Below, piece by piece: positions 33,225-54,794 of a stretch of 64,000 nucleotides of DNA (positions are counted from its first letter, which is position 1; every line of letters starts with the position of its first letter). Origin of the DNA: Brevundimonas sp. EYE_349 (GTDB lineage Bacteria; Pseudomonadota; Alphaproteobacteria; Caulobacterales; Caulobacteraceae); assembly GCF_023147505.1 (NCBI RefSeq), contig NZ_JAHXPB010000003.1, positions 248,001 to 312,000 of the forward strand. The letters are read 5' to 3'. The notes under the pieces were generated by a model. That model was not told the DNA's origin. It searched no databases and saw only the letters and a list, made by a program, of their open reading frames with translations. A program made the position numbers and the translations under genes.

Positions 33225-33234
33225 GCGGCCACAA

Positions 33235-33729: not shown

Positions 33730-33852
33730 TATCGGGACCACTTAACAGTGGCTCACCCGAACACGATAGGCGCTGGGGTTGAGAAAATCGACCACTTAGC
33801 GAGACCAGCTAAGAGCGCCTCAAACTGGCGCAAAACCACCTAAGACCTGCTC
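33730..33852 (+). repeat. Left transposon end with TnsB-binding repeats
   Basis: Repeated motifs follow the terminus: GGGACCACTTAACAGTGGC (33734-33752), CGACCACTTAGCGAGACC with GACCAGCTAAGAGCGCC (33789-33819) and AAACCACCTAAGACCTGC (33832-33849). The shared core is ACCACYTAA. Multiple spaced copies at each end are typical TnsB sites. Confidence 0.8.
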
Positions 33853-33889
33853 AGTCGGTTTCCTCGCGGGGACGGCGCTTCCCGCTCGC

Positions 33890-34207
33890 TCAATGCAGGC
33901 CCGCGTTTCGCCGCTCATGATCGATGAGGGAAAGCAGCTCGCGAAGGGGCTTCTCCATGGTCTCGAGCTTGATGGCTTGAAGTCGACCACCTCGACCGGA
34001 GGCGGATAGCATCGCCTCAAGCACGGCGTCCGAATGCCTCATGAGCTCAACCAGGTTTTCGCCGCTTGGACCGTTGCGCGCTTCGAACCAGTTCTTCACG
34101 GCCCGCTCGTTGGCGTTGGTTATTCGGCTGACGATCTTGCGCGACGAAAGCGAAGAGCCCCATTCATGGTGCAGGGCGTCAGCGATGAGCTTCGGGAAGG
34201 CGTCCAT
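33890..34207 (-). CDS. Putative helix-turn-helix DNA-binding protein
   Basis: A 105-residue protein starting MDAFPKLIADALHHEWGSSL at 34207 (an ATG one codon earlier is equally possible), with GTGAGG upstream. The stretch SSRKIVSRITNANERAVKNWFEARNGPSGENLVELMRHSDAVLEAML is a helix-turn-helix pattern common in alphaproteobacterial mobile elements. It is the gene nearest the left end and faces a recombinase operon. The inverted repeat between them (34233-34275) is its likely operator, so it probably represses itself and that operon. Confidence 0.75.
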   Translation of the reverse strand: MDAFPKLIADALHHEWGSSLSSRKIVSRITNANERAVKNWFEARNGPSGENLVELMRHSDAVLEAMLSASGRGGRLQAIKLETMEKPLRELLSLIDHERRNAGLH

Positions 34208-34232
34208 CATACACCTCACAGACCGGAAATTG

Positions 34233-34275
34233 TTTTCCGATTTTGGACCGAAGTTTTCAGTCCATTTTCGGAAAA
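34233..34275. promoter_or_regulatory. Long imperfect palindrome between HTH and recombinase genes
   Basis: TTTTCCGATTTTGGAC (34233-34248) and GTCCATTTTCGGAAAA (34260-34275) are inverted copies with 13 of 16 positions paired and an 11-bp spacer. The AT-rich site lies in the divergent promoter region of the HTH and recombinase genes, where an operator is expected. Confidence 0.65.
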
Positions 34276-34380
34276 GACTTTCGCTTCCGCTGTCAGTACG
34301 CCGCTTCGCTGACCGCATCGTGAAGGTGCGGAGCTTGTGCGTGCGAGATGGACCGACAGCGAGTTCAGCACGAAGGCGAG

Positions 34381-35907
34381 ATGAAGCGCTCCGTGCGTGC
34401 GGCTCAGTATGTCCGCATGTCTACCGAGCATCAGAAATACTCGACTGAGAACCAGGCGGAGGCGATCGCGGCCTACGCTGCCCGGCGCGGGTTCGAGATC
34501 GTCCGCACCTATGAGGACGCCGGCAAGAGCGGGCTGCGGATGGATGGCCGCGCGGGGCTTCAGAAGCTGATCGCCGACGTCCGGAGCGGCTCGACCGATT
34601 TCAACGCCATTCTGGTCTACGACGTCAGTCGATGGGGCCGCTTCCAGGACTCCGACGAGAGCGCCTACTACGAGTTCATCTGTCGCGAGGCCGGCCTGGC
34701 GGTCCACTACTGCGCCGAGCAGTTCGAGAACGATGGCAGCCTGAGCGCGACGGTCATCAAGAGCATGAAGCGCGCGATGGCCGGCGAGTACAGCCGCGAG
34801 CTATCGGCCAAGGTGTTTGCAGGCCAGTGCCGCCTTATCACCTTGGGCTACAGGCAAGGCGGCCCCGCCGGATACGGCCTGCGCCGCCAGCTCATCGATG
34901 AGCACGGTGCTCCGAAAGGCCTTCTGGAACGTGGTGAGCAGAAGAGCTTGCAAACCGACCGGGTGGTGCTGACACCAGGCCCACCCGAAGAGGTGGAGGT
35001 GGTCCGCCGCCTCTATAGGCTCTTCGTGCTGCAGCAGCGATCCGAGGCTGAGATTGCCGCTCAGCTGAACGCCGAGGGATTGCGTACGGATCTGGGGCAC
35101 CCGTGGACGCGCGCCACCGTCCACCAGGTGCTGACCAATGAGAAGTACATCGGCAACAACATCTACAATCGCCGCTCCTTCAAACTGAAGGCGAAGCGGG
35201 TCACGAATACCCCGGACATGTGGGTGCGCAAGGACGGCGCCTTCGAGGGCATCGTCGATGCGGACTTTTTCGACGCCGCTCAGCGCATCATCCAGGCGCG
35301 AAGCGCACGGTTCAGCGACGAGGAGTTGCTCGCCAGACTGTCCCAGCTCCTTGAGAACAAGGGCTTCCTCTCAGGCCTTATCATCGATGAAGTCGATGAG
35401 ATGCCATCCACGTCCGTCTATCGGAAGCGCTTCGGCAGCCTTCTAAGGGCGTATCAGCTGGTCGGTTACTCCCCCAGCCGGGACTTCCGCTACATCGAGA
35501 CGAACCGCGCGCTGCGGGCCATGCACCCGGACGTAGTCGCCTCCGTGGTGGAGGGGCTGCACGCCGCCGGCGGCCACGCCGACGTTGATGCGAACGGGCT
35601 CCTTAAGATCAATGCTGAGTTCAGCGCCTCGATCATCATCGCGCGCTGTCTAGAGACGCCTGCAGGCGGTCTGCGATGGAAGCTCAGACTCGACCAGGGG
35701 CTGAGGCCGAACCTCACCATCGCAGTGCGGATGGAGCCCGGCAACACGGAGATCCGGGACTACTACCTCCTGCCTTGGATTGAGTACGGCGCTGATCCGA
35801 GCCTGCGCTTGGCGCCCGACAACGGCCTGCTGCTCGACACCTTCCGTTTCGACGAGCTTGGGCCCTTCTACGACCTTGCTAGGCGCACGGAGCTTGCCGC
35901 CGCATGA
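34381..35907 (+). CDS. Serine recombinase of the resolvase/invertase family
   Basis: A 508-residue recombinase; the ATG at 34381 (MKRSVRAAQYVRMSTEHQKY) follows AAGGCGAG and fits the family better than the one at 34348. The resolvase domain has catalytic Ser14 in YVRMSTEHQ, then YEDAGKSGLRMDGRAGLQKLI and YDVSRWGRFQDSDE. A Recombinase domain (GYRQGGPAGYGLRRQL to EKYIGNNIYNR) and a long C-terminal part follow. It heads a three-gene operon with two ParB-like genes (ATGA overlap at 35904). It may resolve, invert or excise DNA; its target is unknown. Confidence 0.92.
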   Translation: MKRSVRAAQYVRMSTEHQKYSTENQAEAIAAYAARRGFEIVRTYEDAGKSGLRMDGRAGLQKLIADVRSGSTDFNAILVYDVSRWGRFQDSDESAYYEFICREAGLAVHYCAEQFENDGSLSATVIKSMKRAMAGEYSRELSAKVFAGQCRLITLGYRQGGPAGYGLRRQLIDEHGAPKGLLERGEQKSLQTDRVVLTPGPPEEVEVVRRLYRLFVLQQRSEAEIAAQLNAEGLRTDLGHPWTRATVHQVLTNEKYIGNNIYNRRSFKLKAKRVTNTPDMWVRKDGAFEGIVDADFFDAAQRIIQARSARFSDEELLARLSQLLENKGFLSGLIIDEVDEMPSTSVYRKRFGSLLRAYQLVGYSPSRDFRYIETNRALRAMHPDVVASVVEGLHAAGGHADVDANGLLKINAEFSASIIIARCLETPAGGLRWKLRLDQGLRPNLTIAVRMEPGNTEIRDYYLLPWIEYGADPSLRLAPDNGLLLDTFRFDELGPFYDLARRTELAAA

Positions 35908-36776
35908 CAGACGCACCTGAAATCCGGCTGATCCCCGTCAATCAGATCACGGTCCTGAACCCGCGAGCGCGCAACAAGCGCGTGTTCCAGGAGCTGGTCA
36001 CCAGCATCGAGCATCTTGGCTTGAAGAAGCCCATCACCGTGAGCCCTCGGCCCGGCCGATCTCGCTATGATCTTGTCTGCGGCCAGGGGCGGCTCGAGGC
36101 CTTCATCGCTCTTGGCCAAGACCAGATTCCAGCGATCATTGTCGATGCGTCAGAGGACGACTGTTTCGTCATGAGCCTCGTGGAGAACCTCGCTCGTCGG
36201 CAGCACACGTCGCTCGAGCTGGTGCGGGCCATCGGAGCGCTTAGGGAAAGGGGCTACTCGATCGATGAGATCGCTGCGAAGGTCGACTTCGGTCCTGACT
36301 ACATCAGCGCGATCTGCCACTTGCTGGAGAACGGCGAAGAGAAGCTGATCTCCGCGGTTGAACGCGGCGTGATCCCTCACACCATCGCCATGGAGATCGC
36401 CAAAGCAAAAGAAGGCGATGTTCAGCAGGCCCTGGCCCAGGCGTACGAAGAGAAATCGATACCCGGCAATCAGGTTCTCGCGATCCGCCAGATCATCAAT
36501 CAGCGAAACACCAGCGGCAAAGGCATTCACAGGACGACGAAGTTCAGTCGGAAGCCGACAACGGCGGGTGCTCTCATCCGCTCCCTTCAGCGCGAGACCG
36601 AACGGAGGCAGTCCTTCGCGCGTCGGGCTTCGCTGACACGTTCCAGGTTGGTGTTCGTCACCAACGCCTTGAGGCATCTGCTCAGCGAGGAGCGTTTCCA
36701 GTCCCTGATGAAGGCCGAGGGCCTGCACACGCTTCCAACAGCGCTGGCGTCGCGGTTGGCCCAGGAGCGGAGCTGA
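35904..36776 (+). CDS. ParB/RepB-like protein 1
   Basis: A 290-residue ParB-family protein: IRLIPVNQITVLNPRARNKRVFQELVTSIEHLGLKKPITV, the ParB box VCGQGRLEAFIALGQ, and MSLVENLARRQHTSLE. The HTH region (YSIDEIAAKVDFGPDYISAICHLL) and a basic C-terminal part follow. The ParB box reads GQGR where classic ParB proteins have GERR, so CTP use is uncertain. It overlaps the recombinase by 4 bp and the second ParB gene by 1 bp. No ParA is nearby, so this is probably not plasmid partition. Confidence 0.85.
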   Translation: MTDAPEIRLIPVNQITVLNPRARNKRVFQELVTSIEHLGLKKPITVSPRPGRSRYDLVCGQGRLEAFIALGQDQIPAIIVDASEDDCFVMSLVENLARRQHTSLELVRAIGALRERGYSIDEIAAKVDFGPDYISAICHLLENGEEKLISAVERGVIPHTIAMEIAKAKEGDVQQALAQAYEEKSIPGNQVLAIRQIINQRNTSGKGIHRTTKFSRKPTTAGALIRSLQRETERRQSFARRASLTRSRLVFVTNALRHLLSEERFQSLMKAEGLHTLPTALASRLAQERS

Positions 36777-37666
36777 TGCACGCAGTCAAGATCGCGTTTG
36801 AGCAGCGCGTCCGGCTCCTGCCGCTCGAGCAGATATTGCCGTCGAAGATGCTGACGGCCTCGGTCATCGACTCGGTGAAGTATCGAAGAATCGCCGCATC
36901 GGTGGCTGAGGTGGGTCTGGTTGAACCTCTCGTCGTGGCGCAGGTGAAGCCGGGAAGCACCTATACCCTGCTGGACGGCCATGTCCGTCTAAGCATCCTG
37001 AAAGAACACGGCGTTGAACGAGCGCGCTGCGTCGTGTCGTCCGATGACGAGGCCTTCACCTACAACAAGCGGGTCAACCGGCTGGCGACAATCCAAGAGC
37101 ACTACATGATCGTCCGGGCCATCGAGCGTGGCGTCTCAGAAGAGAAGTTGGCGCGCGCTCTCAACGTCGACATCGGTTCCATCAGGAGCAGGCGACAGCT
37201 TTTGAATGGCATCCATGATGACGTGGCCGAGCTCCTCAAGGACAAGCCCGTCGGGATCCAGACCTTCAGCAAGCTGCGCAAGATGAAGCCCATCCGACAG
37301 CTGGAGGTCGCGGAGCTGATGGTGTCGGCCAACAACTTCAGCGCCAGCTACGCCCGCGCTCTGCTGGTCACAACCAAGGCGACCGACCTCGTGAATCCAC
37401 AAGCGAAGGCCGTCCCTGGCCTAAGCCCTGAGCAGATCGATCGGCTGCAGCGCGAGCTCGATGCGGGGTCCCATGACTACCACGAGCTGGAGGCGTCGTT
37501 TGGCGACGACACCCTCGTGCTGGTCATCGCGGCAGGGTTTCTGGAGCGGCTCCTGTCTCGTCCTGCCATCGATGCCTACCTGGCCGACGCGCATCCAGAG
37601 ATGTTGCAGAACTTCCGTTCGATCGTAGCGGCGGCGTCTCTCGATCAGACGGCTCAAGCCGCCTGA
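36776..37666 (+). CDS. ParB/RepB-like protein 2 (RepB C-terminal type)
   Basis: A 296-residue protein with a ParB-like N-terminus (VRLLPLEQILPSKMLTASVIDSVKYRRIAASVAEVGLVEPLVV, then YTLLDGHVRLSILKEHGVE) and a region seen in proteins annotated with the plasmid RepB C-terminal domain. The nucleotide box is changed to DGHVRL. It completes the recombinase-ParB-ParB operon. The three genes are tightly overlapping and so are likely to work as one system. Its role is unknown. Confidence 0.8.
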   Translation: MHAVKIAFEQRVRLLPLEQILPSKMLTASVIDSVKYRRIAASVAEVGLVEPLVVAQVKPGSTYTLLDGHVRLSILKEHGVERARCVVSSDDEAFTYNKRVNRLATIQEHYMIVRAIERGVSEEKLARALNVDIGSIRSRRQLLNGIHDDVAELLKDKPVGIQTFSKLRKMKPIRQLEVAELMVSANNFSASYARALLVTTKATDLVNPQAKAVPGLSPEQIDRLQRELDAGSHDYHELEASFGDDTLVLVIAAGFLERLLSRPAIDAYLADAHPEMLQNFRSIVAAASLDQTAQAA

Positions 37667-37996: not shown

Positions 37997-40900
37997 TCAA
38001 GCGACCCGGCGCAGGTAGTACCGTCCGTCGGAGCGGCTGATCGCGCCGGTGCGCTCCAGCGACAGCAATATGCTGATAATCGGCTGTCTAGCGCGCATCC
38101 CTTGGGTGAAGCGGCTGGCGAGCTCTTCCAAGGACAGCCCCCGGTCTGCGTTGGCGAGAACGGCCATGATTGCGCCCGCTCGCTCAATGCCGTTGCCGGG
38201 GAACTCAGGTCGCTCCTCTCCGGCGTCCACCTCAAGATTCATCTCGACGTCTTCTTCAGCCGTCACGGTCGTGTGCACCGCCTGGTACTCAGGCCTGAGC
38301 CATTTTATATCGCCTTCGGCCTCTTGCGCGGCTCTAGCGGCGTTTAGGTCGACAAGCCGCTTGAACATGTCTTCCGCTAGGAGATCGGTAGGCCAGCCGT
38401 ATGCCTCCGCAGTCGCGGCATCGATCTGATCATGAAGCTCGAGAATTCGAGACGCGAGGCCCGCGTCGTGTATTGCCCGTTCCACTGTTGACAGTGGCGG
38501 CTCAGTCGGATCGCGCCGCAAGGCTCTCAAGCGCTCCACGACGTTGTAGAGCCCGGTCATGGTCAACGCGGGGTGGCTTTCGATGCGCTCCTTACGGAGG
38601 CTGTCCAGGGTCTCGCCGAGATCCGCCAACCTTTCCCCCTGCTCGCCGTCAAGATCGGGGAAGGGAAACTGCGGGAATATCTCGGTGTTGTTGAAACGAG
38701 GACGATCCTCTAACGTCCCCCCGAAATAACGACACCAAGCATGATGCGCGGATGACGATAAAACAGCGAGGACAGCCGCACTGCTGCTAGTAACCGCGTA
38801 AGCCATGGCGTCGGGAATGACGTCGTTGGCGACGAAGACGAATGGTCGATGCTTAGCGGTGTAAGGAGTGGCAATGAAACGCGGCAGCCCCTCGATCGCC
38901 TGTCTCATTGTCTTCGCTGGCGCTGCATATCGCCACCAGCGCTTTTTGCGCGAGGGATTCCGGTTCAATTCCCGCTCGGGCTTCACCGTTAGCAGGAGAC
39001 GTTGGTAGATCTCGGGATATAGACGTCTTACCTGGTCCTCGTCCAAATCTTCAACATCTATGATGTATCCGTGGGACAGCCGATCAGTGAGATCATCTCC
39101 GATGATGTAGGGACGGATACGTTTATCACGCACCGCAAATTCAAACCCTGTCATGTCCGCCGGCGATAGCTTGAAGCCGTCGTTGCCCGGCACTACTCCC
39201 TGAAAGCACATGGACCGATTGCTTTTGAGGGGCTTGACCCGCCCTCTTGCGTCCGAGGCGGTCAGGTCGCTGAAGAGACTTTCCACCTCAGTGATCCGCA
39301 AGGATCGGGCGTCATTCTTCTTCTTCAATGTTCCCAGGCGGAGAGGACCGGTGTGGTGGGGCCCCGCGCAGACTGTCAGTGAGATACGGACACTGGCTCC
39401 GTCTTTGTCCTCGACCCAAGGATGATCGGCGACCGCGAAGATGAGTTTGGGCGCTCGACGCGCAGTTAGAGCTTGTTCAACAGCCACGCGGGAATATTGC
39501 TGGGTGATGCTATTTGTCGTGACCAGGCCGAACCGTTTAGTCGCGCCTTCGCCTACTGACCTTGCGGCTTTGACCCACCAATACATGACGATGTCCGCCG
39601 TGCCGGGAATGTCTGGATAGGCCGCCAAAACTGCGTCGCGGTATTCATCGCCTAGACGATCCCGCATGACGCGGATGCCGATGAAAGGCGGGTTGCCGAC
39701 GATGAATTCGGCTGGAGGCCACTGGCGTTCGCGGGGATTGATATAGCGCCAAACCGGCACCTGTACGCTTGTGTCTGGGGTCTTCCTGCCCGTAACCGGA
39801 TGCAGCATCTTGGTCTCGCCGTCCCATCGGGTGCGCTGCGTGCCGTCTTCGAGCAGCACGGGCTCGCGATGATCCCAGTCCAGGATGGCGTCCTTCACTT
39901 CAATGTTGCCATAGGCCTGAAGCACGGGATCGGATGGCGCGGCTCCGCCAGCGTTGCGAAGGTTCCACTGGAGATAGCCGATCCACAAGACGAGTTCGGA
40001 AATCGCCGCAGCCCGCGGGTTCAACTCTAGTCCGAGAAACTGGTGAGGGTCGACCGTTTCACCTTGGAACCCGAGTCGCGCGGTTCCCTCGCCCAATCCG
40101 CCAAGCGCATCCAGGACCTCGCCCTCAAGGCGCTTCATCAGCTCGAGAGTGACGTACAAGAAGTTCCCAGTCCCACACGCAGGATCGAGGATTTTTACGG
40201 TGGCGAGACGATGGTGAAAGTCGGCGGCGATCTTGCGAGCATCAGCCAAGCGTCCCTTCGAACGCGCTTCGTCCATTGCGGCTTGAGCCGCGTTCCACTC
40301 TTGGCGAAGCGGCTCGATCACCGTGATGACAACAAGGCGCTCGACGTAGGACCGGGGTGTAAAATGGGCGCCGAGCTTTGCGCGGTCCTTTGCGCTTAGC
40401 GCGCGCTCCAGAAGCGCGCCGAAGATCGAGGGATCAACTTCGGTCCAGCGCTTGGATGCAGCCGCACGCAGATGTCCGATGTCGGCCGGCTTCAGTTCAA
40501 AGACAGTTGCATCTTGGAACAGTTTGCCATTGAAGCGGCGGACTGTCTGCTCGAACGCGTAGGCGAAGGTACCAGTGTCCATGGCGGACCAAAGCTGACC
40601 AACCAAGTTGGGGAATAGCTCGGGCTGCTGCTCGCAGCGCGCCAGAAGGTTTTCGAACGCCTTCTCGGGAAGGAGGCCCGCGTCTTCGGCGAACATGGTG
40701 AAAAGGCATCGCATCAAGAACATGGCGACAGCCTCTGGATCGTTGCCCTCGCTCTCCAAGGTGGTTGATACCTTTGCGAGGCTGGCCGCCACCTCTCGGG
40801 TGACTGCCTCGGTCCGCTTCGACGGGTCTAGCGCGGACGGCTTCGTCCAGATCATGCGCAGGAACTCGCGCGTATCCTCGCGTTTCAGGTCGTCGAGATA

Positions 40901-41419
40901 AATCCTGAAGCGAGACTGATCGGGAAATTGAGAATAGTTGCGACCTCGTCCGCTGAAATCTGCGAAGACCTCAAAGCAGTTTCCGACGTCGCAGGTGATA
41001 AGGAATGGAGGCCAGTCGTGGTCGTCGGGCAGCGCGCGCGCGTAGTCCTCAGCCTGTCGTCTGGCGTTTAGCATGAGGACATCCCAAGAGCGCCGCGTTG
41101 AGCGCTGGCCGTCCGTCGGCTCGACCGATTCCATACGCTCGACGGCCTTCGGCTGTCCTCGCTCGCGGCTCTGCTTGGCCTCCAGAACAAAGCAGCCGCG
41201 CTTGTAGAGATCGATCCGGCCTGTGCTGCTTCCAGAGACTGGGTCATGGAAGCGAACTGCACGCTCAAAGACATAGTCGTTCAGAGCGCTGTCAGCCCGC
41301 GCGGGATGGGGGCGCTGCACGCCGATTAGATCGCAGAGCTCGCTGAGAAACAGGGCATAGTTAGCCCGCTCAGCCCCTTCAGAAGCCGTCCAACGCTTGA
41401 TGAATTCCTCGACGACCAT
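37997..41419 (-). CDS. MmeI-like type IIL restriction-modification enzyme
   Basis: With the ATG at 41419 the protein has 1140 residues. The nuclease motif is Asp70-X9-Glu80-X-Lys82 (RIDLYKRGCFVLEAKQS), the same pattern and numbering as I know for MmeI. The longer frame begins with GTG and shifts this by six. The methyltransferase core has ILDPACGTGNFLYVTLEL (motif I, near 405) and VGNPPFIG (motif IV), then a target-recognition region. One chain therefore cuts and methylates adenine. It lies downstream of the tns-HNH operon and probably protects the host or stabilises the element. It is longer than MmeI; a lone methyltransferase is less likely. Confidence 0.88.
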   Translation of the reverse strand: MVVEEFIKRWTASEGAERANYALFLSELCDLIGVQRPHPARADSALNDYVFERAVRFHDPVSGSSTGRIDLYKRGCFVLEAKQSRERGQPKAVERMESVEPTDGQRSTRRSWDVLMLNARRQAEDYARALPDDHDWPPFLITCDVGNCFEVFADFSGRGRNYSQFPDQSRFRIYLDDLKREDTREFLRMIWTKPSALDPSKRTEAVTREVAASLAKVSTTLESEGNDPEAVAMFLMRCLFTMFAEDAGLLPEKAFENLLARCEQQPELFPNLVGQLWSAMDTGTFAYAFEQTVRRFNGKLFQDATVFELKPADIGHLRAAASKRWTEVDPSIFGALLERALSAKDRAKLGAHFTPRSYVERLVVITVIEPLRQEWNAAQAAMDEARSKGRLADARKIAADFHHRLATVKILDPACGTGNFLYVTLELMKRLEGEVLDALGGLGEGTARLGFQGETVDPHQFLGLELNPRAAAISELVLWIGYLQWNLRNAGGAAPSDPVLQAYGNIEVKDAILDWDHREPVLLEDGTQRTRWDGETKMLHPVTGRKTPDTSVQVPVWRYINPRERQWPPAEFIVGNPPFIGIRVMRDRLGDEYRDAVLAAYPDIPGTADIVMYWWVKAARSVGEGATKRFGLVTTNSITQQYSRVAVEQALTARRAPKLIFAVADHPWVEDKDGASVRISLTVCAGPHHTGPLRLGTLKKKNDARSLRITEVESLFSDLTASDARGRVKPLKSNRSMCFQGVVPGNDGFKLSPADMTGFEFAVRDKRIRPYIIGDDLTDRLSHGYIIDVEDLDEDQVRRLYPEIYQRLLLTVKPERELNRNPSRKKRWWRYAAPAKTMRQAIEGLPRFIATPYTAKHRPFVFVANDVIPDAMAYAVTSSSAAVLAVLSSSAHHAWCRYFGGTLEDRPRFNNTEIFPQFPFPDLDGEQGERLADLGETLDSLRKERIESHPALTMTGLYNVVERLRALRRDPTEPPLSTVERAIHDAGLASRILELHDQIDAATAEAYGWPTDLLAEDMFKRLVDLNAARAAQEAEGDIKWLRPEYQAVHTTVTAEEDVEMNLEVDAGEERPEFPGNGIERAGAIMAVLANADRGLSLEELASRFTQGMRARQPIISILLSLERTGAISRSDGRYYLRRVA

Positions 41420-41611
41420 GGCCCCCCGCCTTCGCACGCACTGATTGGTAGGGCAGCCTCGTTAATCGATCGCTTACCACGCGACAAACGCCTCCAAATG
41501 AGGTCGAGCTGACAGGTCCTGGCGCGGATTCTGCCCGCTGCTTGGGCTGCCAAGAATGCCGCTTAGGCGAAGAGCGGGCCCCCGCGCCCGTGAACGACGC
41601 GGAGCTGGAGA

Positions 41612-44791: not shown

Positions 44792-46956
44792 TGGAATTCC
44801 TTCCATTCATCGCCACCGTGATCGAATACCGGAAATGCTCCTGTCTCAGGCTCACACGATGTTTGCTGGGGCCGACTGTGAGCGGGCTTTCGCTTTCTTC
44901 CCCTAGGCAGCCGCACGGGCTTAATGCCGTCGTCTGAACGCTCGTTGGCGAGGGCATTGGTGGGCACGATGGGGGCCATGCCGTCATGACGGGGCTCCGC
45001 AAAGGCGATCCTCATGCCCTTACCTGCGAGTTGCTCAATCCGAGGAGAGGACAACAGGCGCGCTGCAGTACGCTTGCGTCGGCCAAACTGACCATCCGGC
45101 CACGCCTCCTCGAAGGCATCCTTCAATGCGATGGTCGATTCCGCCTCCTTCGCGGCGCGCTCATCGCCCCCTTCGCGCTTCCATTCGCTGATCCGTTGGT
45201 GCCGCCAAAGGGACAAGCCGCCCGCGTACTCAGGATCTACGCACGGCAGCGTGACGAACTGGCCAGCCGGAGCATCCCAAACGTGGATCTCACCTAAATT
45301 GGCCGGGTTGTATTTAAACGTCACCTTGGCCCGGGCCGAGCCTTCAGCCTTGCCGCGAACCGGCTCACGTGCGGCTAGCTTCTCCAAAAGCGGGCCAGTG
45401 ATCGCGGGGTCATGATACTGCAAATTGAAGATGGAGACGCCAGACCTAGAAAGAGTACGGGTCTCATAAGCGCCGGCCATCTTGTCGAGCTGCTGCTCAT
45501 CGCTGATGACCTGGATCCCGCATTCCCGAACACCTTCAGACCAAATGCGCACAGGTGCGGCGCCGAGCGTCCGGTGTTGGTGAAGGTGATAGGTGCTGAT
45601 CGTCGCCCAGATGAGCTTTTCCAGCTGATCCAGGGTTAAGACTGCGTCCTTCCGCGGATCGAGTTCCCACGCGCGTAGCTGAGCGATTGGAAATGTCGCT
45701 CCAGGGAGTTTGCGATTCAGCATCGAGTTCAGCGTGCCGAAAAAGCGCTCGACAACGGCCTTGTAGGTTGGAGAGCGGGTCGGCGCCCACCTCACGGTCG
45801 TGCCGATGTCTGTCATCGCTGCTTCGAACGATGTGCCCGAAAACTCCCACCCGTTGTCGACAACGATTTCGTCAAACTTGCCGAAAATGTCCTCCAGTTC
45901 GGGATTGTCGGGGTATCGCTCGCGCAGGTGAAGCTTGGGGCGGTTCGCTCGCTTGATGCACTCCATCACTGCGAAGAGAGATGGAGGTTCGAATGAAAGG
46001 ACCCATCCGACGATGCAGCGAGAATGAACGTCGATCAGGACCGTCAACGTGGGCCGTCCTAACAGCCTCCACCCCTTGGCGTTGATCACTGCGAAGCAGT
46101 CTAGGATCGTGTGATCCATCGCGCCCAGTAACAGCGGGCGGTTGGACACCAGCCCTTTCCCGCAGGCTTTGAAGCGCTTGTCAGCCTCCTTTGGCCCGTA
46201 CTTGGCGGCGACCGTCTCCCAGCACTCGGTCAAGCGTACGTGGAGGCGAAAGCTTTCCTTGCTGGGAACCGCCAGCACCCGGCGTTCGTGACGGCCAAGC
46301 CACCTATTGATCCTGGCAACTCTCGTACAAAGGCGTGCATACGCTTCGCCGATGCTGGTCCCTCGCTCGGCCCAGTAGGCCATAGCGCATCGATGCATCT
46401 GCCGGTGGATACTCGGAGCGAGGCGCAGCGATCGAGGTACCCGGCTAGACATGCTGGTCATCGACCGGAGCTTGCGTAGTCCCGGAGCCCCGCGGTCGTT
46501 TAGCCACCGCCGGACGGTCGAGGGAGCAGGTTGCCGATGCTTGTCCAACTGCAGTGGCTTAGCCTTCCAAATCGAGGCGACTGCTCGCCTCAAGCCTTGG
46601 TCGCTGCGCGAATAATGACCCATGCGATCCAGACCGATCAGTACCGCTTGGCGAACGAACGCACGGGGGTCTCGCGCAATGATCGCTTCGAAGCTGTCCT
46701 CTCGGCGCTCCGCGATTCTTCGAGCTTTCGAACCGCCGACGGCGTCGATGCGCCGAGCCGATCCTGAAGCTATCTGCGCCTTAAGCCACGCCATGGTGGG
46801 CGATACGACCCCTCCGTCCCCAATCTGCACCTGATAGGGTGTTGACGTCCGTTCCGAGCGCAGCAGTAGGAAGCCGCCGCCCATTACCTGCTCGAGATAG
46901 TGGCGCTCACCGTCGATCTCCCAGAGCTCGCCGGTCTTCAGTTGAATGTCGATCAT
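44788..46956 (-). CDS. tnsB: TnsB-like DDE transposase
   Basis: A 722-residue transposase. N-terminal DNA-binding helices bind the end repeats. The catalytic triad is visible: Asp281 in LLGAMDHTILDC, Asp367 in EIVVDNGWEFSG and Glu403 in YKAVVERFFGTLNSML. A Mu-type beta-barrel domain and a C-terminal tail, which binds TnsC in homologues, follow. It joins the 3' ends of the element to the target. It overlaps tnsA by 4 bp and tnsC by 4 bp in the same operon. Intact residues suggest an active element. Confidence 0.95.
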   Translation of the reverse strand: MIDIQLKTGELWEIDGERHYLEQVMGGGFLLLRSERTSTPYQVQIGDGGVVSPTMAWLKAQIASGSARRIDAVGGSKARRIAERREDSFEAIIARDPRAFVRQAVLIGLDRMGHYSRSDQGLRRAVASIWKAKPLQLDKHRQPAPSTVRRWLNDRGAPGLRKLRSMTSMSSRVPRSLRLAPSIHRQMHRCAMAYWAERGTSIGEAYARLCTRVARINRWLGRHERRVLAVPSKESFRLHVRLTECWETVAAKYGPKEADKRFKACGKGLVSNRPLLLGAMDHTILDCFAVINAKGWRLLGRPTLTVLIDVHSRCIVGWVLSFEPPSLFAVMECIKRANRPKLHLRERYPDNPELEDIFGKFDEIVVDNGWEFSGTSFEAAMTDIGTTVRWAPTRSPTYKAVVERFFGTLNSMLNRKLPGATFPIAQLRAWELDPRKDAVLTLDQLEKLIWATISTYHLHQHRTLGAAPVRIWSEGVRECGIQVISDEQQLDKMAGAYETRTLSRSGVSIFNLQYHDPAITGPLLEKLAAREPVRGKAEGSARAKVTFKYNPANLGEIHVWDAPAGQFVTLPCVDPEYAGGLSLWRHQRISEWKREGGDERAAKEAESTIALKDAFEEAWPDGQFGRRKRTAARLLSSPRIEQLAGKGMRIAFAEPRHDGMAPIVPTNALANERSDDGIKPVRLPRGRKRKPAHSRPQQTSCEPETGAFPVFDHGGDEWKEFQ

Positions 46957-47774
46957 TGGACCGCCTCCAGCCGACCGGCGGGGGTCTGCGTGGTGACCGC
47001 TACGACTTCGCTATCGATGCTGAGCCGATCCGAAAGGTCGATACGAACGATCCGGCCAACCATCATCGCCTTCAACTTGGCCATTCCTACGGGTCGGCCA
47101 CCGATGAGATCAGCCAGTGATCCGAGGGCTTGGCTACCGCCGCAGGCGTCCAGACGGTCGAGCACGCAGTACACATCCGTCTCGCCGTAGTTCGCAAGGC
47201 GCCAGGACTGAACGTCCTGGACGTTGTCGAAACATATCCGGGGCTCGAATAGCGCTTCACGATACATCACTCGAAAGCGCCACCCGATCTGGCGGCAAAC
47301 TTCGGCTACACAGTCGAGTTTGAGCGCGTAATCGAGATCCTTCTGGAAACGCCGATCATTCTTGATCTCGACGACTTCCACTACGCCGCTATCGAGCAGG
47401 CGTACGGCGTCGGCTATGTACGTCCGCTTCTCGCCGTCGAGAACGAACTCGAACCGAAACGGCTGGGCGCGGTAGTCAACGACTGCTGTGTCGACCTCGC
47501 TGTGCATCAGGAAGGCGCGCTCGTTCATTCCTTCGAATGGAAACGCCCGGCCAGCCTTCCTGCTGGCGTAAGCGCCTGTCGTGATGCGCCGGCGACCGGT
47601 GATGATGGTTCGGATCGGCTGACCCTTGGGCGTGATCACCAAAGTGGCGGAGGCCGCGAGGGCCTCCCAGCACCATGCTGTGACGGCAGGCGTTGCGACC
47701 TGTTCCAACGCATGGGCCAGGGTATCGGCCTGCATACTGGCAGGCGTGCGAGGGTTATGAGCGATGTTCGTCAT
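46953..47774 (-). CDS. tnsA: TnsA-like endonuclease
   Basis: A 273-residue protein starting at the ATG at 47774, with GGAG 7 nt before it; an ATG four codons earlier lacks a ribosome site. The restriction-like core has Glu85 (MNERAFLMHSEVD), Asp122 (RTYIADAVRLL) and Glu136-x-Lys138 (VEVVEIKNDRRFQKD). TnsA cuts the 5' ends so that transposition is cut-and-paste without cointegrates. It is the first gene of the tnsA-tnsB-tnsC-tniQ-hnh operon. Confidence 0.93.
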   Translation of the reverse strand: MTNIAHNPRTPASMQADTLAHALEQVATPAVTAWCWEALAASATLVITPKGQPIRTIITGRRRITTGAYASRKAGRAFPFEGMNERAFLMHSEVDTAVVDYRAQPFRFEFVLDGEKRTYIADAVRLLDSGVVEVVEIKNDRRFQKDLDYALKLDCVAEVCRQIGWRFRVMYREALFEPRICFDNVQDVQSWRLANYGETDVYCVLDRLDACGGSQALGSLADLIGGRPVGMAKLKAMMVGRIVRIDLSDRLSIDSEVVAVTTQTPAGRLEAVQ

Positions 47775-47849
47775 CCTCAACTCCATTGATTTTGATGAAG
47801 TTAGGAACCGTGCAAGCGAAGGCGGCCGGCCTCACTTGGAAGGCCGTTG

Positions 47850-48425: not shown

Positions 48426-49016
48426 TCAAGCGCCGAGACGGCGCCTACCCAACACAAGAAATGCGTCCAACTGTTGGGTCAGTTTATCGGACGCGTCGTT
48501 AAGGAAGGCAGCATCGGTCTCCCACTGTTCCCGCCGCGCTTCTGCTCGAACGGAATACCAACCGCCATCACCGGCCTTGGGCATGGAGCGTCGCGCTAGT
48601 TCGGTCCGGAAAGACTGAAGCGCCTCTAGGACCGGCGCCCATGCCTTTTCCAGTGTCTTGTCCAAAAAGCGATAGTCCGGTCCTTCCCAGACGGCGACCT
48701 CACGCAGTCCGCTGAAGTCGGACCACTGGAAGTCTTCGCTCATCTCCATCGACCGCAGATTGGCCCGCTCCTTCTGCGAAAGGGTATTTTCGATAAGGGC
48801 CATAAGCCGAAGATCGTGCGGGTGCCGCGCCACCAAGGCGCGGCCTTCCGAAACGGCCCAAAGGGTGAAGGCGACGACAAACGCTGAAGCGCGATCCCAT
48901 TCGAAGGTCCACCCCGCGCCCGGGGCCAGGAGCACAGCTAGGGCAAGCAGGGTAGCGAAGGCGGCGGAGAGCCGCACGGGAGCCGAGCTAATCTGCTCCA
49001 TGACTTTGTAAAGCAT
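48426..49016 (-). CDS. Hypothetical membrane protein with two N-terminal helices
   Basis: A 196-residue protein starting at about 49016 (MLYKVMEQISSAPVRLSAAF; the ATG at 49001 is possible). Two membrane segments (LSAAFATLLALAVLLAPGAGW; ASAFVVAFTLWAVSEG) are followed by a soluble domain of about 130 residues with EMSEDFQWSDFSGLREVAVWEG and a C-terminal helix. No family is recognised. It lies 131 bp after another small membrane protein of similar layout, so the two may be a pair. Confidence 0.7.
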   Translation of the reverse strand: MLYKVMEQISSAPVRLSAAFATLLALAVLLAPGAGWTFEWDRASAFVVAFTLWAVSEGRALVARHPHDLRLMALIENTLSQKERANLRSMEMSEDFQWSDFSGLREVAVWEGPDYRFLDKTLEKAWAPVLEALQSFRTELARRSMPKAGDGGWYSVRAEARREQWETDAAFLNDASDKLTQQLDAFLVLGRRRLGA

Positions 49017-49147
49017 CGCCAGCCTGCAGAATTTTGAACAACACGCCAAACTGGCCGGTTGAACGATCAACGGTCAATGGGCGCTGCAGCCGAGTAGGAA
49101 ACGACGGCTTACAAGCCTGCGGTCTTGATCGATCGGGACGCGAAGTT

Positions 49148-49822
49148 TCAGCGACCTAGAAACCTAGTCGGCCATCCCTCCTTAGGCGTCTTTGGCCGCG
49201 GCCAGATCGACTCCACTTCGCGCTGTTGGAACTGCCAGTGTTCGAAGTGATCACCCGAGTACGTCGGCTTTAGCGTGATCTGTTGCGGAGCCCCGTTTCG
49301 GATCGCGTGGGTGTTGATGATGGCGGCCTCGAAATAGCCTGGCGAAATTCGCCTAAGCGGCCCTGGATGACCGAAGAGCTGCTGGCGGGCATAGGCGTTC
49401 AGCTTCCCTGTCGTGAGGATATCGAGCAGTTCAAACTGCAAGTCGCGATCAGTCACGGCGCGTCGGCTCTGCGCCCACTCGGTTTCCATCGTGAGGTATT
49501 CGACCAGATCAGGAAGCGAGATCATTTCCGCTCTGCGCGACGGCAGGTTTTGCCGGGAAACGGCGAACCGGACAGCGCCGATCGTTACGACACCGCCCAC
49601 GACGAAGGCGTAGAGGTGTGTGGCCACTGGATGAACGAGATAGCCGACCATGGCGACGAGCAGTCCAGAAAGCCATCGCAGGGAGGGCTCAACCAAGGTC
49701 CAAGCCCGGTTGAGTTGGGTGTCTTCCAGAATGGAAGCGATATTCTCGTTGAACGCCGCAAGCAGGATCAAACCACCGATGGCGGTCCCAAGCCCGACTG
49801 CTCCCCGTTTTCGATTCGCCAT
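49148..49822 (-). CDS. Hypothetical membrane protein downstream of qat
   Basis: A 224-residue protein with a basic start (MANRKRG), two or three membrane segments (AVGLGTAIGGLILLAAF; LSGLLVAMVGYLVHPVATHLYAFVVGGVVTIG) and a soluble C-terminal domain (EMISLPDLVEYLTMETEWAQ, then FGHPGPLRRISPGYFEAAII). No family is recognised. It shares its direction with qatABCD, 113 bp downstream of qatD. It could be a sensor or effector partner or independent cargo. Confidence 0.7.
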   Translation of the reverse strand: MANRKRGAVGLGTAIGGLILLAAFNENIASILEDTQLNRAWTLVEPSLRWLSGLLVAMVGYLVHPVATHLYAFVVGGVVTIGAVRFAVSRQNLPSRRAEMISLPDLVEYLTMETEWAQSRRAVTDRDLQFELLDILTTGKLNAYARQQLFGHPGPLRRISPGYFEAAIINTHAIRNGAPQQITLKPTYSGDHFEHWQFQQREVESIWPRPKTPKEGWPTRFLGR

Positions 49823-49935
49823 CTGGTAGAGATATTACCCCAGTGCGGATCGACCAAGAAAAGCGGCGAGTCACCAGATCCAAGACATCTCGGGTGCGCC
49901 ACCGATCCCGATCTAAGTGGCCCCGAGCGCGGTGC

Positions 49936-50700
49936 CTATTGGCTGGTGTCGCTCGGTGTCGCCACGCTCAATGCCGACAGCTTTCGGAAGTTGTTCTCCA
50001 GCTGTGAGGTGACCGCAGACTCCGGCTCCGCCCAGAGCTGCGCTAGGACCGGCACGACTAAGCTTGCCTCCCAAGGATATAGAGGCTTCCCGTTGTTCAG
50101 CCCAAAAGGGCCATCGGTTTCAGGCAGCAGTTTGTCGCGCGGCATCAAGGCGACGGCCCGCCGAGCACGGTCCGAACGGAGCATGGCCGGACCTACTGAA
50201 AACCAGCATCCGATTTCGGCGGCCCTGGCGATTTCGCGCGGCGAGCCCACGAACCAGTGAAGGACCGGGCGGCCCGCCAACGGTTCGGCTTCTAGGAGAT
50301 CAAGCACTAGGCGCGCAGCGTCGCGGCTATGGAGGGAGATCGTCTTTCCGCCCGCGCGTGCGCACAGGATGAGAATGTCCATGAGGATACCCGTCTGGAT
50401 ATCGAGGGTGTCACGGTGGGGTCTGGAACCGTCCAGGCCAACCTCGCCGACATAGGCAGTCTTCGAAAGGAGAGTCTCGAACAGAGGCAACTCAGCAGCC
50501 CGGGCAGCCGCAAGTTCGGGATGAAGCCCTAGAGCCGTCCGGATCCGACTATTTGGCGGAGCCAGTGCCGCCGTTCCGAGGAAGGCGCTCGGTGTCGTGG
50601 TGACCGAGAGGGCGTAGACGCCCCGGTTCGCGACTTCACATGCCACGGCTTGCGGGTCTGGAAATAGGTCTAGGTGGCAATGGAAATCGACTATCGCCAT
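49936..50700 (-). CDS. qatD: QatD, TatD-like nuclease of the Qat defence system
   Basis: A 254-residue TatD-like metal hydrolase. Metal ligands are visible in VDFHCHLDLFPDP, TALGLHPE, VGEVGLDGS, SLHSRDAA and PETDGPF. Its start overlaps the qatC stop by 10 bp. TatD proteins are 3'-5' DNA exonucleases. In Qat this subunit is the nuclease-like part and is needed for anti-phage protection as I know it. The gene is last of four in the usual order A-B-C-D. Confidence 0.88.
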   Translation of the reverse strand: MAIVDFHCHLDLFPDPQAVACEVANRGVYALSVTTTPSAFLGTAALAPPNSRIRTALGLHPELAAARAAELPLFETLLSKTAYVGEVGLDGSRPHRDTLDIQTGILMDILILCARAGGKTISLHSRDAARLVLDLLEAEPLAGRPVLHWFVGSPREIARAAEIGCWFSVGPAMLRSDRARRAVALMPRDKLLPETDGPFGLNNGKPLYPWEASLVVPVLAQLWAEPESAVTSQLENNFRKLSALSVATPSDTSQ

Positions 50701-51959
50701 CGAACCGTTTCAAGAAACGCGCTTACTTCGGCCAACCCTCTATCCACCGTTCCGATGATCGTGGCCCGCCTCAGGGGATCACTCGGTAGTGGGCCAGCAG
50801 CCGCTACCCATCGTTCAACGGCCGCCGGGTCGAGGTGCCCGCGCCGAGCACCTGCTAGAAGCGCAGACAGTACGTCGTCATTGTCCTTTGATCGGTCAAG
50901 CCTAGCGGCGTAGCCCCGCTCCGTCATGTCCGGCACACCCGACGCGTGGAAGGATGCCCGGCGAATGAGGCAAGGAATGCAGCGCCCACACTGCTTGTTC
51001 AGCCGCTTGCCCTTGCCGCAAGAGTAGGACCCTGAAGCCAGGAGGCCGAGTTGAGGGTGATCGCATTCGGCTAGCATCTCACCCTTCGTCTTTCCCTCGA
51101 AAATATTGTGAAGCCGAACGTGAATGCCGACGGCATCTAGAATTTCGCTCAGCTCCTTGAGCAGGTGCGGGTGAGTAGTCCTCGTGCTCAAGGAGCCGAG
51201 ACGACGTCTCGTGAGCGGCGGATTGATCGCGATGAAGCCGTTTTCCGGCACGATCACCTCACCCAACCCGAGAGCTGACGCGGCCAGGGCACCGTAGGCA
51301 AAGAAGATGAGCGACCGCCCCCGTGTCGATCCTTCGTAGGGGGCCCGCCATTTTTCGCTGACCCGCCCCTCAAAGCGGTGCTGCGACAGGCCTATGGCCT
51401 CAGATAGGGAGACTTGAGGCGAAATTTCTTTTGGAGACCCTTGGCTCACCAAGAGGGGAGTGCGTCCTTCGGCCTGCAGTTTGATCGCCCCAAGCAAACT
51501 GTCGAGCCCCCCTGAGAAGAGGCAAATGCAGTCCCGGTCCGTCAGCTGTGGCGGGAACGCTGGTGCTTCATCGCCGTCGGGCGAAAAGGAGAGGTGCCAG
51601 ATATCGCCGGTGAGGAACCGGAAAGCCGCCGCGAGGCGCTCACGATGGGGCTCCCAAATGACCGGATTCTGGACAGCCACATCGACAGAAATCACGCGGG
51701 TCCACCCGTCTTCCGACGCGCTTCGCAAGACGAACCGATCAGCCGCGAATATCGACATCGCGATGGAAAGAAAGTCCCAGGCTAGCTGCGAAGGAGGACG
51801 CGGTAGACCCCGGCGAACCTGGTCGCGCAGGTTTGCGCCCAGCCCGGGCAGGTCTCTGCTGCCAGAGTGAAATAGAGCCACCCCCAGCCGGTCCGCTCCG
51901 TTGTGAAAGGCGGCGGCTCGAGGAGCATCAGGGGTCGCGCGGATTGCTGTCCCTACCAT
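50691..51959 (-). CDS. qatC: QatC, QueC-like protein of the Qat defence system
   Basis: A 422-residue protein with a PP-loop ATPase motif CICLFSGGLDSLLGAIKL near 150 and a cysteine cluster (SYSCGKGKRLNKQCGRCIPC) near 330 matching the zinc site of QueC, the 7-cyano-7-deazaguanine synthase. N- and C-terminal extensions set it apart from housekeeping QueC. Its ATG overlaps the qatB stop by 7 bp. It may modify a nucleobase or protein end during defence; the real reaction is not known from sequence. Confidence 0.88.
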   Translation of the reverse strand: MVGTAIRATPDAPRAAAFHNGADRLGVALFHSGSRDLPGLGANLRDQVRRGLPRPPSQLAWDFLSIAMSIFAADRFVLRSASEDGWTRVISVDVAVQNPVIWEPHRERLAAAFRFLTGDIWHLSFSPDGDEAPAFPPQLTDRDCICLFSGGLDSLLGAIKLQAEGRTPLLVSQGSPKEISPQVSLSEAIGLSQHRFEGRVSEKWRAPYEGSTRGRSLIFFAYGALAASALGLGEVIVPENGFIAINPPLTRRRLGSLSTRTTHPHLLKELSEILDAVGIHVRLHNIFEGKTKGEMLAECDHPQLGLLASGSYSCGKGKRLNKQCGRCIPCLIRRASFHASGVPDMTERGYAARLDRSKDNDDVLSALLAGARRGHLDPAAVERWVAAAGPLPSDPLRRATIIGTVDRGLAEVSAFLETVRWR

Positions 51960-52738
51960 GTCGCCATCTCCGCGATCACGTCGGCCGCGATCTGCCTGAC
52001 CAGGATTTCGATGTTGGCTTGACTAAGAGGACCAGCGGCCTGCTGGAGCACCGGAGTAGCCTTTACATCCGTCAACTCCCTGACGATGTCTCTCAGATCG
52101 TTCTCTCGCGAGACCGCTTGTGCCGGGGGAATGTTCGCCGCTGCCTGCCCTTGTTCCACCGCTACCGCAGCGAACACCATCTCGGCTACGAAGCAGCGCA
52201 TGGCCACGACGACCGTATAGTCATCCAATGCTGTGGGATCGAACTGATCAGCCCCGGCCAGCGCCTCGGCGAGCGATTCCGCCAGTGAGGCTCTTATCGT
52301 GTCCTCATCCAAAATGCCCGGCGGACAAAATGCATCTACAATGGCCGCAATGGCGTCGACCACAGGCTGACCGGCCAGTGTGCTGATGTCGAAGGATCCA
52401 GGAGTAGGCCCTTCGCCGCGCCCAGCTCCAGAAAGCGCACCGAAGACTTGGCCTCCTATACGGGCGGCGCGTCCGAGACGTGCCGCCCCAGCTGCTCCCC
52501 CTCCTGCGGAACCGCGAGCATAGTGTCCCAGCGCGCGGCGTCCGATGCGCTCGTCCCCGGTCTTTAGATAGTCCTTCAGGGCACGCCTAAGCCCCGTCGT
52601 TCTTCGCGGTTCCAGTACCTCTTCGTTTTGGGGAGGCTGCGGTTGCGGCACCCCAGTGGGAGGAGGGTCCTGCTCAGCCCAAGAGGGGATCAAAGGCGAT
52701 CCCGGTTTGGCTGACGGCTTCGATTGAGATGTTCCCAT
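51953..52738 (-). CDS. qatB: QatB protein of the Qat defence system
   Basis: A 261-residue protein with a proline-rich N-terminus (PLIPSWAEQDPPPTGVPQPQ) and a glycine/alanine-rich middle (LGHYARGSAGGGAAGAARLG). A helical C-terminal half (about 120-261) follows. There is no enzyme motif. Its start directly follows the qatA stop (TAAATG). The call rests mostly on its place between qatA and qatC; QatB has no known domain outside this system. Its role is probably substrate or adaptor protein. Confidence 0.82.
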   Translation of the reverse strand: MGTSQSKPSAKPGSPLIPSWAEQDPPPTGVPQPQPPQNEEVLEPRRTTGLRRALKDYLKTGDERIGRRALGHYARGSAGGGAAGAARLGRAARIGGQVFGALSGAGRGEGPTPGSFDISTLAGQPVVDAIAAIVDAFCPPGILDEDTIRASLAESLAEALAGADQFDPTALDDYTVVVAMRCFVAEMVFAAVAVEQGQAAANIPPAQAVSRENDLRDIVRELTDVKATPVLQQAAGPLSQANIEILVRQIAADVIAEMATW

Positions 52739-54499
52739 TTAGCCTCCCTCGGCTGCGAAGCCCTTAGCCTTGAGCAAGGCCTTCACGCCGGCTTGCATCG
52801 TCTTGGTCTGTAGCGTGCTCGTGAAGGCTCGAAGGTCTGTCTTCAGTTCGGCCGACGTTTCCGCCAGGATGATCGCGCCATGGATGCCTTGCACCTTTTT
52901 CGTCCAGTCCTCTTCTCGGAGATGAGCGACAAGGGAAGTCATGACGGCCTTCGCGTCCACCGGTGAGAGGTTTCCGATCACGCCAATGGCGGCGGGCGAA
53001 TTGATGCTGTTCACACCAAGAAGAGCCTGGAAGGCAGATTTCGCGGCCTCACTCAGACCTGTCCGGCCGCGCGCCGGAGCCATCACATCACGGCTCAGGA
53101 ATACTGCTGGCCGAAGAGCCGCGACATTCTCGAAGTGCGGCTCCATTTCTTGCCATTCCGCAATGAAGGGCTCGTACTTTTTCCATTCGGGCGGCGTTTC
53201 GGGCCGCTCGCCCTTCAGCTTGTCGTGCGGCATTAGGTACTTGTCGGCATTGGCCTCTTCCATGACCAGCCGATAGAGCTTCTGCGCCGCGAGCGCGTCC
53301 GTGCTTCGCTCGAAGACCGCAAGTTTCGCTAAGGTTGCTAAATCCACGTTCATCTTCCGATCAGCCGCTAGAGTCTGCCGGAGTGTGATGGCGTTCAGAA
53401 GTCGCTTTACGATCCGGGGATTGCCGTTGATCGTGGGTGCCGTCGCCAGAATCGGCGCCAGCCTGTCGCAGACGGCCAGTTCATCGAGGAGACCGACGGG
53501 ACTCCCCGCCACGGTGTTGATTTCCTGACGGGTGAATGTGGCTCCCGTCCAGCTCGCCTGGAGGGCTACGAGCAAAACGGCTTGAACTTCGCCGAGTTTG
53601 GTAGGCGCGGTCTTACCGACAAATAGCGAATACATGTACGCGCGGACATCCTCGGCCCCAACCTGAGGCACCCGCATTGGCACCTGTATGACCTTGTCCA
53701 AGTAGTCGTGGACGTGCTGCGCGTTCGGATCACTGAAATGTTTCGCGACGGAATGGCGGATCATGTCCTCATCAGCCGCAATGACGAAGGCTGTCCCTTC
53801 GATGAAGAGGAACAGTCTTATCGCTTCAAGGGTCCCGATTGCGACGTCGGGAAGGCATCGGTCGAGGTTGTCGATGAACAGGACAAGCGGTCGCCCAAGG
53901 TCAGAGAGAATTTCCGCGAACTCCTCACGGAAAGCGGCGATTTCTTTGGGCGGGGTTCTTGCCTCGGCCGGCTTAACCAGTTTGGACCAAGCGTCGGCCA
54001 CCTGTTTCCCACCGCTTTTCAGATCCTCGATGTCCGAAGCGTCGCCTTGGCCAGAGACCATTGCGCCGATAGCGCTCCCTGCGCTGGTCAACAGACCCGG
54101 CGGCACGCCAAGCGCCATTCCCAATCCGACATCAGCAGCCATGCCGAGCGCTCGGAAATAGTTGATCCGAGACGCGAAGCTCTTTGCCTTATTTAGCAAC
54201 CCCTCATCGGCCTTGGCCTCCTTCAGAAGGCGCTCTGCTACCACCTCCATAAGAGCGGCTTTGGAGTCGTCGTAGCCTTGGTATAGCCAAGCGTCGAACT
54301 TGATAATGATGGGCGCAGGGTTTGTTTGGGCCAATCGGCTTTCGACGAGGCGCAGCACGGTCGACTTGCCGGTGCCCCAAGTTCCGAATACTCCAATGGA
54401 GACTGGCAACAAATCAGGGCGAGTCGCGAGCACTGCAATTTGCTCAGCAACCTCGGTAAAGTTCAAAAAATCCTGGTCGCTCTCGCTATCGCGCCACAT
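52739..54499 (-). CDS. qatA: QatA, KAP-family P-loop NTPase of the Qat defence system
   Basis: A 586-residue KAP NTPase: Walker A GVFGTWGTGKSTVLRLVES (about 38-56), an insertion with hydrophobic helices near 120-150 (AADVGLGMALGVPPGLLTSA) that may touch the membrane, and Walker B RPLVLFIDNLDRCLPD near 215 with AFVIAADEDMIRHSV. The rest is helical. It is the first gene of qatABCD and should drive the system with ATP. The 295 bp between its start and the transposon end contain its promoter and show no further gene. Confidence 0.9.
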   Translation of the reverse strand: MWRDSESDQDFLNFTEVAEQIAVLATRPDLLPVSIGVFGTWGTGKSTVLRLVESRLAQTNPAPIIIKFDAWLYQGYDDSKAALMEVVAERLLKEAKADEGLLNKAKSFASRINYFRALGMAADVGLGMALGVPPGLLTSAGSAIGAMVSGQGDASDIEDLKSGGKQVADAWSKLVKPAEARTPPKEIAAFREEFAEILSDLGRPLVLFIDNLDRCLPDVAIGTLEAIRLFLFIEGTAFVIAADEDMIRHSVAKHFSDPNAQHVHDYLDKVIQVPMRVPQVGAEDVRAYMYSLFVGKTAPTKLGEVQAVLLVALQASWTGATFTRQEINTVAGSPVGLLDELAVCDRLAPILATAPTINGNPRIVKRLLNAITLRQTLAADRKMNVDLATLAKLAVFERSTDALAAQKLYRLVMEEANADKYLMPHDKLKGERPETPPEWKKYEPFIAEWQEMEPHFENVAALRPAVFLSRDVMAPARGRTGLSEAAKSAFQALLGVNSINSPAAIGVIGNLSPVDAKAVMTSLVAHLREEDWTKKVQGIHGAIILAETSAELKTDLRAFTSTLQTKTMQAGVKALLKAKGFAAEGG

Positions 54500-54749
54500 G
54501 TATTCCCCCGAACCTTAACCATACAACTATTGCGGTAGAGATTCCTAGGCCTTCGTCCGGAACGACGGTAGGGCGTAGCGGGATACCCGCCGCGTCAACC
54601 CAACCTGCATAGCAGGTGCGGCTTCGCCACAGGGTATGACCCGGCGGTCTGCAAGCGGTCCTTCCGAACGTCCGCGATGGGTCAGGAGCGGCCGATCGTG
54701 CCCGGCAGCGGGCGAACGACGTATGTCAACCATACCAAGTGCAGATTCT

Positions 54750-54794
54750 GCGCCACTTAAGCTGGTTCTGAGCCAGCGTTAGGTGGTCTCGACA
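54750..54794 (-). repeat. Right transposon end with TnsB-binding repeats
   Basis: Read inward from 54794 the end begins TGTCGAGACCACCTAACGC, followed by GGCTCAGAACCAGCTTAAG and TGGCGCAG. Two copies of the ACCASYTAA-like motif are adjacent, unlike the spaced copies of the left end, as in other Tn7-like elements with asymmetric ends. Confidence 0.8.

Follow-up and report, generated by a model that had tools for sequence, protein, structure and literature searches.

The window, a 64,000-nucleotide stretch of Brevundimonas sp. EYE_349 (contig NZ_JAHXPB010000003.1, positions 248,001 to 312,000), contains an element of 21,065 bp (window positions 33730–54794) that is, judged from its sequence, a complete Tn7-like transposon with an intact tnsABC-tniQ operon. 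It probably homes to a point 2 bp past the 3' end of a tRNA-Arg(CCT) gene, since the 3' half of that gene is the predicted binding site of its TniQ protein. Taken as one joint claim, a complete, tRNA-Arg-homing Tn7-like transposon directed by TniQ, this reading is given a probability of about 0.87.

The left end (33730–33755, forward strand) and the right end (54769–54794, reverse strand) each consist of a terminal TnsB-type site. Read from 33730 and, on the reverse strand, from 54794, they are identical at 21 of 26 positions. Both are flanked by the 5-bp target duplication AACAA (33725–33729 and 54795–54799). Further left-end sites begin at 33797 and 33828, 67 and 98 bp inward; in the element of Brevundimonas naejangsanensis (genome G051) the internal left-end sites lie at 68 and 99 bp. 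A second right-end site is present at 21 bp in the elements of genomes G051, G049 and G045, and at the right end in the window the terminal site alone exceeds the same site threshold. The 5-bp duplication and the ends with repeated TnsB-type sites are both characteristic of Tn7-like elements. The original prediction, made from the DNA letters of the window, had proposed matching ends, AACAA on both sides, exact boundaries and a complete element; the ends, the duplications and the open operon bear this out.

The transposition genes are all located on the reverse strand. The first, tnsA (46953–47786), encodes the endonuclease; its product matches the Pfam TnsA-like amino-terminal domain above the cut-off and has invariant residues E97, D126, E140 and K142, which we take to contain the known catalytic triad, and it matches none of the solved TnsA structures at an E-value of 0.01. 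The DDE transposase encoded by tnsB (44788–46956) contains the Pfam domain Mu-transpos_C above the cut-off and the rve core below it, resembles the solved TnsB of Tn6677 (E-value 1e-43) and has invariant residues D281, D367 and E403. The AAA+ regulator encoded by tnsC (43853–44806) has TniB and AAA domains in Pfam, resembles the TnsC of Tn6677 (E-value 4.3e-11) and retains K75, D153 and E154 as invariant residues. The tniQ gene (41974–43860), whose start codon was set by homologue P0001, encodes the predicted target selector of 628 residues. This protein has no Pfam TniQ match; its family profile matches solved TniQs (best E-value 6.9e-7) and its predicted model fits TniQ folds, with a putative architecture of a TniQ core plus winged helices. 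A TnsA with catalytic residues, a TnsB, a TnsC and a TniQ/TnsD-family protein, encoded in one operon, are the proteins by which a Tn7-like element is recognised. The frames are open and the residues conserved, as had been predicted, and comparison with Tn7-like proteins, suggested at the time as a check, places TnsB nearest to type I-F3 and TniQ with the solved TniQs. Directly after tniQ lies an HNH endonuclease gene (41612–41977, reverse strand; Pfam match below the cut-off), 74–77% identical in the elements of G049, G051 and G176. This level is maintained between the window and the loci L065 (8104–8469) and L062 (11272–11637), where tniQ is only about 34% identical, and the sequences suggest that the HNH gene has either been exchanged or is under stronger constraint.

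The target gene expected at the edge of the element is indeed present: a tRNA-Arg(CCT) gene (54802–54878, reverse strand, by tRNA gene prediction) has its 3' end toward the right end, with the duplication 2 bp beyond the encoded CCA. When the flanks are joined, leaving out the element and one AACAA, they align to Brevundimonas genome G039 over 217 columns with 86% identity, none of the four gap letters being closer to the junction than about 60 bp. The empty-site comparison proposed with the original prediction thus gives a site that rejoins without gaps near the junction, though in G039 the five duplication bases differ from AACAA and the right end of an older element abuts the tRNA gene. In the genus, 58 of 61 genomes were scored (G005, G040 and G054, without a usable flank, were left out). 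With a weight matrix built from eight confirmed ends, the element-end score beside tRNA-Arg(CCT) is 20.2–39.5 in 13 of them and never exceeds 4.6 in the remaining 45, a pattern beyond chance; the ends in the matrix came partly from this genome and G051, both among the 13. In all 13 the end faces the tRNA gene, at 0–2 bp in eleven, at 6 bp in G033 and at 13 bp in G059. Seven of them (G007, G009, G020, G033, G039, G043 and G052) lack any TnsB match; their ends would belong either to decayed elements or to helper-dependent ones.

In the family Caulobacteraceae, delimited by its named members, TnsB matches (E-value 1e-60) occur in 28 of 390 genomes, in 31 rows that correspond to 30 loci once the broken gene of G024 is joined. 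For 21 of these loci, the tnsA side shows an end that could be placed beside a tRNA gene, a recurrent attachment site like that of other Tn7-like elements. In the newly surveyed family genomes the tRNA gene was sought on this side only, and the orientation there is no independent result. Nineteen of the tRNA genes are tRNA-Arg(CCT) (the window, G051, G024, G019, G003, G205, G176, G298, G251, G257, G337, G240, G175, the second locus of G243, G312, G194, G255, G241 and C. endophyticus G239; G019, B. intermedia, and G051 belong to the same genus as our genome). The other two, in G045 and G049, are tRNA(CAT) genes, called tRNA-Met by ARAGORN and also open to a reading as tRNA-Ile. The nine unplaced loci are G254, G220 and G120 (contig ends), G187, G372, G347, G247, the second of G176 and the first of G243, which lies stacked behind that genome's second. 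The spacing from CCA to duplication is 0–2 bp at 15 of the 21 loci, with values of -1 (G312), 3 (G175), 4 (G194), 6 (G257), 9 (G239) and 10 bp (G241) at the rest. Against a random background of up to 8.9, end scores are weak for G255 (6.4), G240 (9.6), G257 (13.2), G312 (13.5), G194 (13.9) and G243 (15.0), the last being backed by matching CGATA on both sides. Counting a second copy in our genome, described below, 22 insertions are resolved. Matching duplications are present at both ends in nine, eight at tRNA genes (the window copy, G051, G049, G045, G176, G241, G239 and G243) and one in a TonB-dependent receptor gene; in the other 13 the right end was paired with the tns genes by nearness, the G024 pair being on different contigs. 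A second, different TnsB in G176 (G176:C1:2631627–2633735), is 42% identical to the query and located about 25 kb from the first; the adjoining 40 kb in the direction of tnsA contain no end-like site or tRNA gene.

Trees of nine TnsBs and of twenty TniQs, both of which carry a program warning on long branches, place the two tRNA(CAT) users in one well-supported clade among the tRNA-Arg users. This amounts to a single change of tRNA target on either tree. The placement of the elements is consistent with TniQ/TnsD selecting the tRNA gene. In C. endophyticus G239, the element adjoins a sequence whose match to tRNA-Arg(CCT) is confined to the part between the anticodon loop and the CCA, and this half-tRNA target suggests that the 3' half may suffice. 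In the mechanism we propose, TniQ would recognise the tRNA gene by its 3' half, reading the DNA with the predicted winged helices of residues 320–628, and would recruit TnsC and the TnsA-TnsB transposase; TnsA and TnsB would then move the element by cut-and-paste.

The same genome appears to contain a second copy. The left end recurs at contig C17:1–127 (127 bp) and the right end at contig C21:1–126 (126 bp), both identical to the ends in the window and both with their junctions at contig ends. Next to each is a separate 5-bp duplication, ACATC, and the flanks rejoin into one open frame. Compared with the uninterrupted homologue in G009, a TonB-dependent receptor according to Pfam, the rejoined gene is 86% identical over 595 bp without gaps and, as protein, 97% identical over 398 residues. 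The insertion place has no detectable likeness to the tRNA. All other resolved insertions are at tRNA genes. The presence of both ends in the receptor gene suggests that the element has moved recently, and with one TnsB match in the genome, the window operon is the likely mover. We infer that the second copy arose by rare, untargeted insertion by the same machinery. The recurrence of the ends at other loci, which had been proposed as a check, is found in this genome and in other elements, and the description of the element as likely active gains support, at the level of sequence, from the second pair of ends with its own duplication in a genome with one TnsB match.

Stacking of elements is observed at the left flank. 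The region 33634–33725 (reverse strand) is not ordinary chromosome. It is what remains of the right end of an older, related element and directly adjoins our left end: by alignment, it is 88% identical over 92 columns to the right end touching tRNA-Arg in G039, and it has an end score of 29.0. Given this resemblance to a tRNA-abutting end, the newer element probably entered between the older one and the tRNA gene. Stacking recurs in three other genomes. The two loci of G243 are arranged as right end, CGATA and left end, followed further on by right end, CGATA and tRNA gene, while G241 and G239 have the end of another element directly behind the left end, with weaker scores of 15.7 and 13.2 (the G239 case was also assessed visually, in comparison with G257's right end). 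A second, truncated end tip is located between the right end and tRNA-Arg in loci L109 (G059) and L179 (G241); in G241 this fits insertion of the newer element a few bases inside the older right end. Left of the element, 32858–33690 contains insertion sequence scraps: 32858–33213, of which all or part recurs elsewhere in the genome in copies of 91–96% identity, and the tail of an IS1182-type transposase, within 33310–33741. Farther away, 16140–20183 is a long repetitive open frame, which we take to resemble a trimeric autotransporter surface protein.

The predicted defence cargo is present on both sides of the tns operon, on the reverse strand. An MmeI-like type IIG restriction-modification enzyme (37997–41437) was identified with Pfam and PADLOC, and a Qat system (49936–54499) with PADLOC: qatD (49936–50700), qatC (50691–51959), qatB (51953–52738) and qatA (52739–54499), with best E-values of 4.8e-40 to 4.2e-178. 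Going by their family names, the Qat system and the type IIG enzyme would defend the host, which would help to keep the element. Among related elements, that of G051 carries DRT3a/b and an OLD-like match, that of G049 PD-Lambda-4 A with a weak match to a type IIG enzyme, and that of G003 a Pycsar cyclase; in a defence scan of nine proteins from four such elements, six matched at an E-value of 1e-10 and three had no match. Two open reading frames between tnsA and Qat (48426–49070 and 49148–49822, reverse strand) have no family match in Pfam, PADLOC or PHROGs.

The left end is followed by a module of four genes. A small gene (33890–34318, reverse strand, 142 residues), with a weak match to a phage family of unknown function, precedes a serine recombinase of 519 residues (34348–35907, forward strand) with Resolvase and Recombinase domains in Pfam, and two genes, also on the forward strand and assigned with Pfam, encode a ParB/RepB-like (35904–36776) and a RepB-like protein (36776–37666). 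All four are conserved in identical order in G176, G241, G254 and C. endophyticus G239, the recombinase with 73–82% identity. The module adjoins the left end in four of the five elements, the closest end-like site of G254 being 1.4 kb farther outward. In G051 and G045, the sole counterpart is a more divergent recombinase (40% and 47%, respectively). An intact TnsA makes a cointegrate resolver unnecessary in principle, and the module possibly provides a second targeting route or regulation. A broader view, which we hold only tentatively and consider rather doubtful, is that a Caulobacteraceae family of such elements homes to the last 45 bp or so of tRNA genes with a TniQ bearing a MerR/BldC-like winged-helix array, stacks into defence islands and has a non-tRNA route, the recombinase-ParB-RepB module being a new target selector or cointegrate resolver and the TonB copy the first trace of that route.

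The conserved module raises the question whether the element owes its position at the tRNA gene to the serine recombinase, in the manner of many integrases, rather than to TniQ. This recombinase and the two ParB/RepB-like genes occur in the window and in four other elements, at least four of these five having them near the left end, and the available part of PMC11406308 describes tRNA genes as common integration sites of mobile elements. The boundaries, however, are TnsB-type ends with varying 5-bp duplications and no shared core, and G049, though without a match to the serine recombinase at an E-value of 1e-6, shows exact ends and a duplication beside a tRNA gene. This origin is considered very unlikely. 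Guidance by RNA, with a guide matching the tRNA gene as in type V-K CRISPR-associated transposons (CASTs), is extremely improbable. Attachment sites at tRNA genes are common among CASTs in the accessible text of PMC11406308 and, among solved TnsBs, those of type I-F3 are the closest to ours in sequence, but there are no array-like repeats and no Cas match in 16 main genes (Pfam) or in nine of them (PADLOC), and classification as a CAST was rejected on these grounds.

The second copy, whose junctions are both at contig ends and whose middle was not assembled apart, could instead reflect mixed strains or an artefact of assembly. Against this, the overlap of 127 bp is also seen in two other contig-end pairs (C17/C2 and C20/C6), as would be expected of a repeat in an assembly graph with k = 127, and the flanks are halves of one gene with a fresh shared duplication. 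No intact receptor allele was found in the assembly, where the matches are the two halves and a pair of less similar paralogues, and an artefact or mixture is judged unlikely. That the element is a relic no longer moving would agree with the frequency of decay in the family, suggested by the seven of 13 genus genomes with an end at tRNA-Arg and no TnsB match. Open core genes, ends identical over 126–127 bp between the two copies and a perfect duplication at each copy leave this with very little probability.

A TniQ-directed transposon remains the preferred reading, in which a non-CRISPR operon with a single TniQ probably yields, within one genome, both precise tRNA homing and an insertion that escaped it. 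With two tRNA targets (Arg-CCT and CAT) used by related TniQs, and a half-tRNA target occurring in nature, the code by which TniQ reads DNA becomes testable, and the stacking illustrates how a tRNA gene can gather defence islands. Assignment to the Tn5053/Tn402 family, which has TniABQ without TnsA, was rejected, as TnsA is present and conserved. As in Escherichia coli Tn7 (TnsABC with TnsD or TnsE), the element combines TnsA, TnsB, TnsC and a TniQ-family selector with a 5-bp duplication, and its right end faces an attachment gene that stays intact. Unlike in Tn7, this gene is tRNA-Arg, abutted by the right end, and not glmS, and the cargo flanks the tns operon on both sides. No TnsE match was found among the scanned element genes, of which two are without any family match. 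TnsB scores 52.7 bits to Tn7 TnsB and 152.9 to that of Tn6677. The type I-F3 elements (Tn6677, PseCAST) have the nearest solved TnsB and TnsC by sequence and the same TniQ core fold; in contrast to them, no Cascade genes or CRISPR were found with Pfam, PADLOC and repeat scans, and TniQ has 628 residues versus 394–432 in the solved I-F3-type chains compared, whose subtype labels come partly from separate analyses.

Insertion next to tRNA genes is already known for Tn7-like elements (PMC8649781, PMC10293859 and PMC11406308, in their accessible parts), and a search of the open-licence literature found no published description of the present ones. The type I-B2 and I-D elements (PmcCAST, CyCAST) likewise insert next to a tRNA gene, there directed by TniQ/TnsD (excerpts of PMC10293859 and PMC11406308). 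According to the same excerpts, CyCAST inserts 30–33 nt beyond tRNA-Leu (PMC10293859) and its subfamily has a fused TnsA-TnsB (PMC11406308), whereas here tnsA and tnsB are separate and the duplication usually follows 0–2 bp after CCA. When the tRNA site, left-end module, tniQ and HNH gene are compared, the element of another species, Brevundimonas sp. M20 (G176), is similar: it is located at tRNA-Arg(CCT), with TAGCG as its duplication, and is 79–83% identical in the left-end module (60% in one part of the small gene), 66% in tniQ and 77% in the HNH gene.

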